Of a stretch of 47,174 nucleotides of DNA, positions 30,497 through 36,094 are shown in pieces; position 1 is the first letter of the stretch; each line of letters opens with the position of its first letter. Below the pieces are notes generated by a model. It did not search any database. It saw only the letters and a program-made list of their open reading frames with translations, and had not been told where the DNA came from. Both the position numbers and the translations under genes were made by a program. Source of the DNA: Candidatus Nitrosopumilus sp. (GTDB taxonomy: Archaea; Thermoproteota; Nitrososphaeria; Nitrososphaerales; Nitrososphaeraceae); NCBI GenBank assembly GCA_013694585.1, contig JACDCB010000077.1, forward strand, positions 1 to 47,174, written 5' to 3'.

Positions 30497-32269
30497 ATGT
30501 CTATTTTTTGGAACATTAAAGACAATGACAATAATTCAAAGCATGTTGAATCTAATGATCAATATATTGATGAATCCTCTGATAAGAAAATAAAAAGCAA
30601 GGAATACAAGAAGAGGTCCGAATCGTTTTTAAGATTTGATGATCTTGATCTGGAGAATATCCACATCAGAAATGATGTATTGCTTGAGATTGCTACATTC
30701 TTATCTAGACGGTGGTCAGACAATTCTGAATCAACTATTCATATTTCAAGAGAAGGAAAAATCTCAACTAATTTAGACAAGAAAAGAATTACCCTTCCTG
30801 GATTGGATTATTTCTATGGTAATATTTTTCAAAAGTACAGACAATGGCGAACATTACTATGGTATGAATCAGTCAGATTAAAATATTCATTTAAGATTTT
30901 TGATACTGACGTCGTCTTTGGATTTGTATTTAACATTTTGGAGACAAAACGGATAGAAATATTGGGATTAGAAGAGTGGAAAGGTATGATAAAAGAAATT
31001 ATATATTACGAAGGGCTATCCTGGCACAACAAACCCCTACTGAATTCACTCCATGGGAAAAACAAAGTTTTAGAAGCATTTTCTCAGTTCTTTTTGACAG
31101 GATATATAAAGGGTGAACTCTATGGTGGAGAAAATGAAAGAGTAATAAATGCATCAGAATATGCACAGAGCATTTTAAGAGATTATATAAAAAATTTCAA
31201 ACTTAATAATAAAACTTATGACCCAATTAAGGACCAAAAGTGGTTAGAATATGAAACAAGACAGATAATTAAAATCCTTCAAGTTGATTCGCTAATGTCG
31301 GTCCCACCCATCCCTATTCTTATGCCAAAGAGCAAAGTAGGGCTTTCGATGAAACAGGAGGAAATACTATCACAAATTGAAAAACTAGTGAGGATAAAGA
31401 CTAAGGAGATTGAAATAGAGAAATTAAAAAAAGAAATTGTCCAAGGTGATGATATCAATGAAGAGTTTAGAATAATAGTCAATGAGAGCAAGAAAAATGA
31501 TAACAAAGGTTTTGAAACAACTGAAAACCTTTCTATTGCGATCCCAGATAACATGGGTGTTGACGAAACTGCCATTTATGATTTTGATTTAATTAACAAG
31601 GTGAAAACGGCCCTCAAGGAATGGAAAAGTGGATGGAAAGAAAAATATGATTTTAACGGAGACGAAATAGAAATTGAAAACTACATTGAAAAGCAGCCAA
31701 AAGTTTTCATTAGTGATAAGAAAATTGCTATAAATGTAAAAATATCGGTACTTTTGGATCTTTCAAGCAGTATAGAAGACAATGAAATGGAGTACAAAAA
31801 AGCCACAGTCGCACTATGTGAGGGATTAGAATATCTAGGAATTAAATTTTCTATATATGCTTTTAATACTGAATCTAGAACGGTTAAATGTTGGGTCATT
31901 AAACCACCAACAGCAAGATGGGGATCCATATATGCAAGAAGACTTATGCAAGTAAAACCAATAGGAGGAACGCCCTTGGCAGAGATCTACAGGATACTTC
32001 AGCCAAGCATTAGTGCATTTAAACCAGATATTTTCGTAACACTTACGGACGGTGAACCCTCAGATATGGATGCTGTGCGTTCAATAGTCCTGTCATACAA
32101 GAGAAGTGGTGTGAAAATGATTGCTATAGGTTTGGGAGCTGATTTGGGAGACGCGATAGGAATTGGATATAATTTGAAATACCTCAACTATCAAAGAATT
32201 TTAACGTTATCAAAAAAGAGGTTGCAGGATTTACCTAAAAAAGTATTGGGACTTTTAACTACAGAATGA
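30497..32269 (+). CDS. VWA-domain protein, CbbO/NorD-like
   Basis: C-terminal VWA with MIDAS DLSSS, GGTP, TDGEPSD; directly follows AAA+ gene. Confidence 0.88.
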   Translation: MSIFWNIKDNDNNSKHVESNDQYIDESSDKKIKSKEYKKRSESFLRFDDLDLENIHIRNDVLLEIATFLSRRWSDNSESTIHISREGKISTNLDKKRITLPGLDYFYGNIFQKYRQWRTLLWYESVRLKYSFKIFDTDVVFGFVFNILETKRIEILGLEEWKGMIKEIIYYEGLSWHNKPLLNSLHGKNKVLEAFSQFFLTGYIKGELYGGENERVINASEYAQSILRDYIKNFKLNNKTYDPIKDQKWLEYETRQIIKILQVDSLMSVPPIPILMPKSKVGLSMKQEEILSQIEKLVRIKTKEIEIEKLKKEIVQGDDINEEFRIIVNESKKNDNKGFETTENLSIAIPDNMGVDETAIYDFDLINKVKTALKEWKSGWKEKYDFNGDEIEIENYIEKQPKVFISDKKIAINVKISVLLDLSSSIEDNEMEYKKATVALCEGLEYLGIKFSIYAFNTESRTVKCWVIKPPTARWGSIYARRLMQVKPIGGTPLAEIYRILQPSISAFKPDIFVTLTDGEPSDMDAVRSIVLSYKRSGVKMIAIGLGADLGDAIGIGYNLKYLNYQRILTLSKKRLQDLPKKVLGLLTTE

Positions 32270-32291: not shown

Positions 32292-32315
32292 AAAAAAATA
32301 AATAAATAAATAAAT
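32292..32315. repeat. Short AAAT tetranucleotide repeat
   Basis: taaaaaaataaataaataaataaatt between convergent genes. Confidence 0.7.
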
Positions 32316-32980
32316 TAGAATTCAAGATCAGGGTTATCTTTTTCTAGTTTTTTCCAATCCGACAAGAACGAATCCAGGCCCTTGTCTGTCAGTGGATGGC
32401 GTATCATCTTGTCTAAGATGTCTGGTGGAAGAGTAACGACGTCTGCCCCCATTTTTGCCGCTTCGATCACATGTAATGGATGACGAACACTAGCCACCAA
32501 TAATTGGGTTGAGATATCGTAACTAGCAAATATTTGAACAATTTCACTTACCAAATTCAGACCCTCGGTTCCAATGTCATCTAACCGGCCAATAAACGGA
32601 CTTACATAAGTAGCTCCGGCTTTTGCAGCTAATAACGCTTGATTTGCAGAAAAAATTAGTGTCACATTAGTTTTTATGCCCTTTTTGGTTAGTGCATGCA
32701 CAACTTTTAGACCATCCATGGTCATAGGAATCTTTACAACCACATTATCCCCATACTTTGCTAATTTCAACGACTCTTCCATCATCTTCTCAAAGTTAGT
32801 CGCAACTACCTCAAGGCTTACTGGTCCCTTCACAATCTCTACGATTTTCTTCATGGTCTTAATGGGGTTGCCTTTTTCTTTTGAAAGTAAAGTTGGGTTG
32901 GTAGTGATACCATCTACGACTCCTAATTCATCGTATTTTTCTATAGATTCAACATTAGCAGTATCTAAGAAGATTTTCAT
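32315..32980 (-). CDS. tal: Transaldolase (small, fructose-6-P-aldolase-like)
   Basis: [59 protein letters not shown]. Confidence 0.93.
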
Positions 32981-33969
32981 TTTTTTTCACTCTTTTTTAG
33001 GGCGATCACATTTTTTACTATTTCCCCTGGAGACAAGCCATATTTATCTAAGAGTGAATCGATTTCTTCGTCTCTTGCAGACTCACCGTATCTGTCTCTA
33101 ATTCCTATTTTTCTTACGAAAGTAGGGCATATTTCAGAGGTCACTTCTGAAATTGCAGACCCTAATCCCCCTATTATATTATGCTCTTCTATAGTAGCCA
33201 ATGAGCCTGTTTCCTTCGTACATCTGTAAATCAAATCCGAGTCTATCGGTTTGATAGAGTACATATCGATAACCCTACAAGAAATATCATGATCCTTTTT
33301 CAATGTGTCGCTTGCCTTCAGTGAGGCTGAGATCATAGTTCCACATGAAAATAAACTGATATCGTTACCATCTTTTATTATTGTTCCTTTTCCTAATTCA
33401 AAGTCGGATTCCTCAGAATAGATTTCCTCAGTTGAAGGCCTGGCTAACCTTACATAGAATGGACCCGGAATATGCACTATTTTTTCAAGCAGTTTTTTGA
33501 CTGAAATCGCATCGGCAGGTACCAAGACCCTCATATTTGGTAAAGATCTCATAATAGAGATATCTTCAATTTGTTGATGAGAGGCTCCATCAGGTCCCAC
33601 GGATAAACCAGCGTGGGATACTACAATTTTCACGTCTAGGTTGGGATAGCAAATTGCATTTCTAATCTGATCCAAACACCTGCCTGGAATAAAAGCAGCA
33701 TAAGTACTAGCAAAAGAAACTTTACCCGCGATAGCAAGTCCAGCTGCGATAGAAACTAAATTAGCTTCGGCTATTCCAACATTGAAAAGTCTATCTGGAA
33801 ATTTTTCACCGAATTTTTTAGTTTTGAGCGAATCAGTAGTATCACCACCCACGCACACAATGTTAGAATGCTTACTACCTAAATTTACAAGGCTATCTCC
33901 GTATGCAGAACGCATATCAGAAAATTTAATATCACTAGTAGTCAAATGGTTCAATTCATAGTTCACCAT
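32977..33969 (-). CDS. Transketolase, C-terminal subunit
   Basis: [50 protein letters not shown]. Confidence 0.93.
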
Positions 33970-34030: not shown

Positions 34031-35650
34031 TTATCTCGATAAATTAAATTGTTCTATTATGTTCCTTCGGCCCTTAATCCAGTCTTCTTCAAGATTTAGA
34101 GACTGGGATTCATCAAGTAAACTCTTCTCTAGATAAGAATCGAGCAAAAATCTAGTATCCCTAATTCTCTTGTCAACATCACTATTACCAAATATTGCAT
34201 TTCCCATTACAAATATTCTGCAACCGGCATCAAAGCACTGAGTTATTGTTGACGGGTCTATTCCACCATCAGCCTCAAAATAACCCTTAAATCCTCGCTC
34301 CCTTAGTAGGGGAATAGCCCTTTTCATCTTGGGTAAAATTTCTGGAATGAATTTTTGACCAGCAAAACCAGGATTTACAGACATTATGATAATGACATCA
34401 AGGTTATCAAGATAAGAGAAAATCCATTCTGGCAATTCGGTGCCAGGATTTACAGCTAGTCCAGGGCTAACACCGCTTGATATAAGTTTAGAATTGATCT
34501 TTTCAAATTCTTGCTCGTTACTACAAGCCTCTGCATGGACAGTTATAACATCACAGCCTGCATCGATATACTGATCCAAGACTTTGGCAGGATTTTGGAT
34601 CATCAGATGAGTATCAAATGGCAATCTTGTCCCGTCTCGTAATTTCTTAACAGTATCAAAGAAAAAAGTTGAGTTTGGAACAAATTTCCCATCCATCACG
34701 TCTAAATGTATCATATCTGCACCGTACCGCTCGGCTGTTGCTATTTTTTGTTTCAAACTTTCCTCACCGATTCCATCTGCACCTGCTATAATAGAGGGGG
34801 AAATCATATACTCCCCTTCCAGTTCTCTTATTAACAACGGTAGATGTTTTTTTGAAGGCGCTTTCCCATGCCACTGAGGATTGTTAGCCATATGTTTTAT
34901 ACCGTTCCCTTTCACGGTGTTTGCTATTATTATTTTGGGCCTATCAACAGGCTTTTTTAAAAGTTCTGGAATCAGCTGTTCAATCTTATGACCATTAATT
35001 TCTACCACTTCCCAGTTAAACGAAAGCCATTTTTCTTTGATAGGGTCGATTGGCATAATCTCTTCGGTAAATCCATCTTGTTGAATCTTGTTTCTATCCA
35101 AGATGGCAATAAGGTTATTAAGTTTGAATTTTGCAGCAGCCATTGACGCTTCCCATATTTGACCTTCATTGGTCTCACCATCACCTAGGAGACAATACAC
35201 CATATTGTCACGCTTGTCAAGCTTATTAGCAAGGCATATACCAATTGATACAGAAAGACCAATACCTTCAGATCCCCCAGAATATTCGATTCCCGGCACG
35301 CTGTGGTGCTTTTGCATCTCGCTAAATCTTACAGGATGTCCTTGTAGTCGTGAATTCAATTTTCGTAACGTCTTTATCTCATCCTTTGGGAAAGATCCAA
35401 CTAGGGATAAAGTAGCATAATATCCCGGTGCCGAATGAGCCTTTGAATTTATGAAATAATCTCGATTGGGATTAGAAGGATTCTTAATATCATTATTCAT
35501 TATCTGAAAATAAAGACAACCCATAATTTCGGCAGCCGAAAAGGATGCACCAGGGTGTCCTGATCCTGCTTCTGCTATGCCGGTTAAGGCTATAGTACGT
35601 AAATCCTTAAGTTTTTCCTTTAATTTCAAATACCTATTTATGTTGTACAT
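34031..35650 (-). CDS. Fusion: transketolase N-terminal subunit + ribulose-phosphate 3-epimerase
   Basis: N-part GSGHPGASFSAAEI, LGDGETNEGQIWEA, HGKAPSKK; C-part ISPSIIAGAD, MIHLDVMDGKFVPN, HLMIQNP, MSVNPGFAGQKFI, EADGGI; one uninterrupted frame. Confidence 0.92.
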   Translation of the reverse strand: MYNINRYLKLKEKLKDLRTIALTGIAEAGSGHPGASFSAAEIMGCLYFQIMNNDIKNPSNPNRDYFINSKAHSAPGYYATLSLVGSFPKDEIKTLRKLNSRLQGHPVRFSEMQKHHSVPGIEYSGGSEGIGLSVSIGICLANKLDKRDNMVYCLLGDGETNEGQIWEASMAAAKFKLNNLIAILDRNKIQQDGFTEEIMPIDPIKEKWLSFNWEVVEINGHKIEQLIPELLKKPVDRPKIIIANTVKGNGIKHMANNPQWHGKAPSKKHLPLLIRELEGEYMISPSIIAGADGIGEESLKQKIATAERYGADMIHLDVMDGKFVPNSTFFFDTVKKLRDGTRLPFDTHLMIQNPAKVLDQYIDAGCDVITVHAEACSNEQEFEKINSKLISSGVSPGLAVNPGTELPEWIFSYLDNLDVIIIMSVNPGFAGQKFIPEILPKMKRAIPLLRERGFKGYFEADGGIDPSTITQCFDAGCRIFVMGNAIFGNSDVDKRIRDTRFLLDSYLEKSLLDESQSLNLEEDWIKGRRNIIEQFNLSR

Positions 35651-35758: not shown

Positions 35759-36094
35759 TTACATGTTTATTCCAATACTAGACAAAATCGCTTCCAAATC
35801 GCTCTTGGTAAGGCCTACTCCCATTCTGGCATCTCTACGATCTTTAATTGTGTTTTTGGAAAAGGCTATCAAAGTCGGTACTGCATTGATACCATATTTA
35901 TCCCACAAAGGGTTTTCATCCTCGTTCAGTTTTACACCCCCAATAGGAATTTTTATATCGCTTAACTGTTTAACTGAATTTTCAAATATAGGTATAAAAC
36001 TTTTGCAATAATGGCACCAATCAGCATAAAACAAAATTAAGGAATTTGCACTACTTGTGGCAGAATCAAGTTCGCTCTGGCTAAAGTCTTTCAT
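35759..36094 (-). CDS. Thioredoxin-fold protein
   Basis: LILFYADWCHYCKSFIPIFE (WCHYC), NAVPTLIAF. Confidence 0.9.
   Translation of the reverse strand: MKDFSQSELDSATSSANSLILFYADWCHYCKSFIPIFENSVKQLSDIKIPIGGVKLNEDENPLWDKYGINAVPTLIAFSKNTIKDRRDARMGVGLTKSDLEAILSSIGINM

Follow-up and report, generated by a model that had tools for sequence, protein, structure and literature searches.

A transketolase N-terminal subunit fused to ribulose-phosphate 3-epimerase in mesophilic ammonia-oxidizing archaea

The 47,174-nucleotide stretch of archaeal DNA analyzed here (the window) contains a reading frame in which the N-terminal subunit of a split transketolase (TktN) is followed directly by ribulose-phosphate 3-epimerase (Rpe). 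This locus raises the question of whether the two enzymes are genuinely encoded as one protein and, if so, how widespread this protein is, how it arose, and what might be gained by joining its parts. The fusion is real and conserved. It is very probably a two-enzyme protein, composed of the split-transketolase alpha chain and Rpe, that goes back to a single ancestral fusion and whose likeliest effect would be to keep the two enzymes at a fixed ratio and within one assembly.

Domain composition and gene neighborhood

The frame at positions 34031 to 35650 of the reverse strand translates into a single stop-free open reading frame (ORF) of 539 amino acid residues. In a Pfam search, its residues 14 to 264 match Transketolase_N (PF00456, E value of 6.7e-40) and residues 283 to 487 match Ribul_P_3_epim (PF00834, E value of 4.6e-53), both well over the cut-offs. 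The translation and this search, which an earlier note on this DNA had proposed, agree with the reading given there, based on short sequence motifs, of a TktN half and a complete Rpe in one ORF. With the strict rpe equivalog model TIGR01163, the Rpe half scores 193.4 bits against a cut-off of 212.6, and it exceeds the cut-offs of the subfamily model NF004076 and of PF00834. Both Pfam and the fold comparison show that the transketolase half has no Pyr or C domains on its own chain, which is the layout of a split-transketolase alpha chain; the partner subunit, TktC, is encoded apart (Table 1), so that the division of transketolase into halves described in the earlier note holds as well. At the joint, the DNA reads GGAAGGGGAG TAT ATG ATT TCC, translated as ...EGEY-MISPSIIAG, with the G-rich GGAAGGGGAG (34811 to 34820) located just 5' of it.

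Table 1. Coordinates of the fusion protein parts, of the adjoining genes, and of the reverse-order fusion
Feature	Position	Strand	Remarks
TktN (PP/TPP-binding) domain	34808..35650	-	Fusion residues 1-281; PF00456; 44% identity to 6YAK alpha chain
Junction	34805..34819	-	TktN end EGEY, then old Rpe start Met, ATG 34805-34807
Rpe barrel	34151..34807	-	Residues 282-500; PF00834; AF2 model vs 2FLI, TMt 0.91
C-terminal tail, fused clade only	34034..34144	-	Residues 503-539; invariant Leu511, Trp524
TktC (Pyr + C domains), partner subunit of fused TktN	32977..33969	-	PF02779, E 7e-38; PF02780, E 7.9e-25
Transaldolase/fructose-6-phosphate aldolase (TalC/MipB type)	32315..32980	-	TIGR00875 over cut-off; PF00923
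Reverse Rpe-TktN fusion	L073:4096-5712	-	G411; G417 counterpart in L097

The TktN residues His32, His72, His105, GDG (156 to 158), Asn187, and His261 are invariant in 16 fused homologues, and, in the Rpe half, His315, Asp317, His348, and Asp461 occur without exception in all 60 distinct fused sequences and in all 21 of the compared Rpe sequences that are unfused or fused in reverse. Thus, both domains look catalytically competent. The AF2 model of the fusion (mean pLDDT of 83.5, pTM of 0.87) has the last TktN helix (residues 267 to 278) almost directly joined to the first Rpe strand (residues 282 to 287). Its closest solved structures are 6YAK, the split transketolase alpha chain, and, for the Rpe half, the epimerase 2FLI; the fold match to 2FLI indicates a beta/alpha barrel, and the catalytic or metal-binding set of His, Asp, His, and Asp is kept. 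The homologous split transketolase of Carboxydothermus hydrogenoformans is an active alpha2beta2 tetramer (PMC7661550). Judging from its sequence, the fusion is almost certainly bifunctional, and we infer that it has both activities and assembles with TktC.

The TktC gene starts 61 nucleotides 3' of the fusion and overlaps the transaldolase (Tal) gene on the same strand by 4 nucleotides, just as the earlier note had it; a comparison of loci finds TktC adjoining in the fused loci and in most unfused ones. That note had also described a compact nonoxidative pentose phosphate module with no Rpi in view. Indeed, Rpi is absent from the window, and a single RpiA gene is found on contig C72 (PF06026, E value of 3.4e-44), which makes the module complete at the genome level. 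The genome assembly consists of 280 contigs and is estimated to be 90% complete, so gene absences are not absolute. It contains one match to PF00456 and one to PF00834, both of which are the fusion ORF, as well as one OMPdecase-family gene, which is PyrF and not Hps; no Hps was detected in this estimated 90% of the genome. The fusion therefore appears, from these matches, to be the sole detected source of TktN and Rpe activities in the genome.

The likely anabolic route proceeds from F6P and GAP to E4P and Xu5P by transketolase, from Xu5P to Ru5P by Rpe, and from Ru5P to R5P by RpiA. In this organism, the fused TktN would combine with the separately encoded TktC into an active transketolase that yields Xu5P, to be converted to Ru5P by the fused Rpe and then to R5P by the separate RpiA; in these autotrophs, the flux most likely runs from F6P and GAP toward ribose-5-phosphate and E4P. 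Because, in this direction, Xu5P would be produced by transketolase and consumed by Rpe, the fusion would link the Xu5P-making enzyme to the Xu5P-using one.

Two more genes flank this operon. A small thioredoxin-like protein (PF00085) is encoded on the same strand 5' of the fusion (35759 to 36094, minus strand), and a 590-residue protein with a weak, sub-cut-off VWA match and a C-terminal MIDAS-like DLSSS motif is encoded convergently with the operon (30497 to 32269, plus strand).

Distribution and origin

In the family of the window genome (f1), 59 of the 61 sampled genomes yielded a match, and in 55 of these a frame without interruption covers both domains. The remaining four matches are partial, with two of them spanning the junction, and separate genes were seen in none. 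In a second family (f9), all 62 listed genomes encode the fusion in an open frame of approximately 551 to 605 residues. Fused assemblies of both families include single-contig genomes, such as G005, G007, G014, G025, G037, and G042 in the f1 search. The earlier note had pointed to separate ORFs in close relatives as the observation that would speak against a fusion and had left its distribution open; all 55 full-length matches in f1 are fused, as is every matched genome of f9, a distribution that is already published (see below). The window genome, with its 280 contigs, might be suspected of a sequencing or assembly error that masks a stop codon at the junction. However, the identical open frame in independent assemblies, single-contig genomes included, makes such an artifact vanishingly improbable, and a hidden stop was ruled out by the open frame across independent f1 assemblies.

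Family-specific inserts were seen in the TktN half. In f1, the segment VRFSEMQKHHS follows the LQGHP motif at residues ~107 to 115 (near 35305 to 35332), with low AF2 confidence at residues 97 to 109. An insert of ~18 residues (e.g., DEELVGDDLSEMWKDASRWKT) is found in f9 (loci L084, L085, L088, and L089) and is missing from f1.

The archaeal amoA gene is present in the window's genome and in families f1, f9, f2, and f3; a family search did not find it in f8 and f10. On grounds that include amoA, f1 and f9 would correspond to Nitrososphaeraceae and Nitrosopumilaceae. In f2, f3, f8, and f10, which belong to the same order as the window, TktN and Rpe are separate ORFs in a TktN-Rpe-TktC arrangement, with Tal nearby in most loci. 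The same unfused arrangement is found in two genomes of f72, the gene order in f25 is TktN-TktC-Rpe, and no Rpe adjoins TktN in the f14 loci examined. The TktN and Rpe genes of f3 share an ATGA overlap, so that few mutations would have been enough to fuse them.

All fused sequences fall into one clade, with support of 100/99, in the TktN tree and likewise, with support of 100/99, in the Rpe tree. In the latter, f2 adjoins the fused clade (88/71); in the former, the unfused families of the order and f72 form a group of their own. Since the amoA-bearing sister families f2 and f3 are unfused, the fusion arose within the ammonia oxidizers, and together with the single fused clade in both trees this points to one fusion event, in a TktN-Rpe-TktC-Tal operon, in the stem lineage of the mesophilic members before f1 and f9 diverged. 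Such a scenario fits both trees, which do not support separate origins in f1 and f9. The mesophilic lineage has been named CAMA (PMC7554672), and "Candidatus Nitrosocaldus cavascurensis," with a genome of 1.58 Mb, is sister to all known mesophilic ammonia-oxidizing archaea (PMC5797428). A search of open-license papers for thermophilic ammonia-oxidizing archaea in connection with the pentose phosphate pathway and transketolase found nothing relevant.

The same two enzymes are also fused in reverse. This version was found in 2 of 91 members of f18, a family from another order (G411 and G417; 83% identity between the two), where Rpe (residues 9 to 197) precedes TktN (residues 269 to 524) in one chain of ~539 residues (P0002). 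As with the window fusion, both enzymes reside in one chain, and TktC and Tal follow 3' of it in G411 (L073); in contrast to the window fusion, the order is opposite, the parts are separated by a linker of ~50 residues, and there is no tail. Its TPP motif is SDG and not GDG, and a PRPP-synthetase-like gene lies close by in L073. The TktN part groups with a Micrarchaeota metagenome-assembled genome (MAG) among CPR/DPANN sequences (97/99), and the Rpe part groups with a Micrarchaeota MAG within CPR/DPANN-type sequences (98/92). The operon order in the Micrarchaeota MAG is Rpe-TktN-TktC, and this order is frequent among 80 named, mostly CPR/DPANN TktN loci identified in a transketolase-profile scan of genome contigs, none of which has Rpe in the TktN ORF. 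Because both of its halves group with lineages that have the Rpe-TktN-TktC order, the reverse fusion would have arisen from this other operon order, probably after transfer.

Junction, C-terminal tail, and likely effect of the fusion

The WHG motif and the joint are 22 residues apart in all 69 fused loci compared, some of which are repeats of one genome, and two extra loci missed by the WHG search motif have the same junction length by eye. At the position of the old Rpe start, 41 of these 69 loci encode Met, 20 encode Leu, 6 encode Phe, and one each encodes Val and Ala; in 17 loci, the codon is one that does not normally initiate translation (CTT, TTC, CTC, CTA, TTT, or GCA). In the most divergent fused members, f9 loci L086 (G401) and L092 (G178), Ala stands where the Rpe start Met used to be. 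Thus, the old Rpe start has decayed in many lineages, and free Rpe made from the junction is not a conserved feature. A dual product, in which the junction ATG and the G-rich leader also initiate free Rpe to supply extra epimerase, would fit the GGAAGGGGAG-TAT-ATG of the window and the ATG retained in 41 of the 69 loci; however, with Leu, Phe, Val, or Ala in the other 28, including the 17 with noninitiating codons, it is very unlikely. A conserved internal start was accordingly rejected as a general mechanism, and some internal initiation is possible in the loci that keep the ATG, the window among them. One chain and loss of the internal start together result in equal amounts of TktN and Rpe, in line with the earlier proposal that the fusion could enforce stoichiometry. 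Posttranslational proteolytic cleavage of the fusion would be compatible with the sequence and is possible.

Beyond position 503, the fused proteins carry a tail of 37 to 48 residues, and each of the 60 distinct fused sequences has Leu511 and Trp524. The unfused Rpe proteins of the sister families terminate 4 to 27 residues past this position and have no aligned Trp. AF2 predicts the tail to be helical both in the fusion and in Rpe plus tail alone; in the latter, block means are 86 to 93 for the tail and 68 for its last block, a confidence similar to that in the full fusion, so TktN is not needed for a confident prediction of the tail. The idea of the tail as a lock onto TktN was also considered, and the similar AF2 confidence with and without TktN neither supports nor opposes such docking. 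As for the role of the tail, oligomerization and docking of TktC are our guesses.

What the fusion might be good for can be considered against this background. It could be of no functional use at all: once two neighboring or overlapping genes had lost the stop codon between them, drift would have fixed the change, and separation would be hard to regain. One or two mutations would suffice where adjacent sisters have ATGA-type overlaps, as in L057 and L058, and the stem lineage was narrow. Yet there is no reversal in at least 117 genomes, the junction length is constant throughout, the conserved tail is confined to the fused proteins, and a second, independent fusion exists, all of which renders a neutral fusion rather unlikely. 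If, instead, the fusion brought the active sites of transketolase and Rpe together so that Xu5P is handed over directly, one would expect consecutive enzymes that have Xu5P in common, a near-zero linker of invariant length, and perhaps the same enzymes fused independently in reverse order, and all of these are seen. However, the junction is at the N-terminal strand of Rpe, which in such barrels occupies the face away from the active site. Besides, the transketolase site requires TktC, and the AF2 model was made without it. Channeling is distinctly unlikely in our estimate, and no paper on channeling between transketolase and Rpe was found in the open-license literature. It is likewise rather unlikely that the fusion and its tail form an obligate higher-order assembly in which transketolase tetramers are tied together by Rpe oligomers, with a kinetic coupling through Xu5P that was selected twice in opposite orders.

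We infer that a fixed ratio and co-assembly of the two enzymes are a likelier benefit than channeling. The unfused genes of the thermophilic-type relatives offer a natural before/after comparison, which makes the benefit of the fusion, be it ratio, assembly, or channeling, testable, and the independent reverse-order fusion is new evidence that joining TktN and Rpe is useful. Few archaea on Earth are as abundant as the mesophilic ammonia oxidizers, for which the fusion serves as a molecular marker; it is placed on what seems to be their sole route to ribose-5-phosphate.

Comparison with known systems

The TktN-Rpe fusion itself is already reported: in the accessible text of an archaeal fusion/fission survey (mSystems 2024), it is cluster 341.1, present in 73 of 98 Thaumarchaeota assemblies, with the same domains, in the same order, and in the same lineage of ammonia-oxidizing Thaumarchaeota as the window fusion (PMC11237513). 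That text deals with the presence of the fusion; its placement on the stem of the mesophiles, the C-terminal tail, the loss of the internal start, and the reverse fusion go beyond it and may be new, as far as open-license papers show.

Among other fused enzymes, the archaeal Hps-Phi, whose bifunctionality has been validated experimentally (as cited in the accessible text of PMC11237513), is similar in that two consecutive enzymes acting on pentose and hexose phosphates are joined. However, it consists of other enzymes and serves the reverse RuMP pathway, and its Hps was not detected in the window genome. The closest counterpart of the transketolase part is the split enzyme of C. hydrogenoformans (6YAK; PMC7661550), which, as here, has the PP domain on one chain and the Pyr and C domains on another. 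The alpha chain of that enzyme stops after the PP domain, whereas the protein encoded in the window continues into Rpe and the tail.
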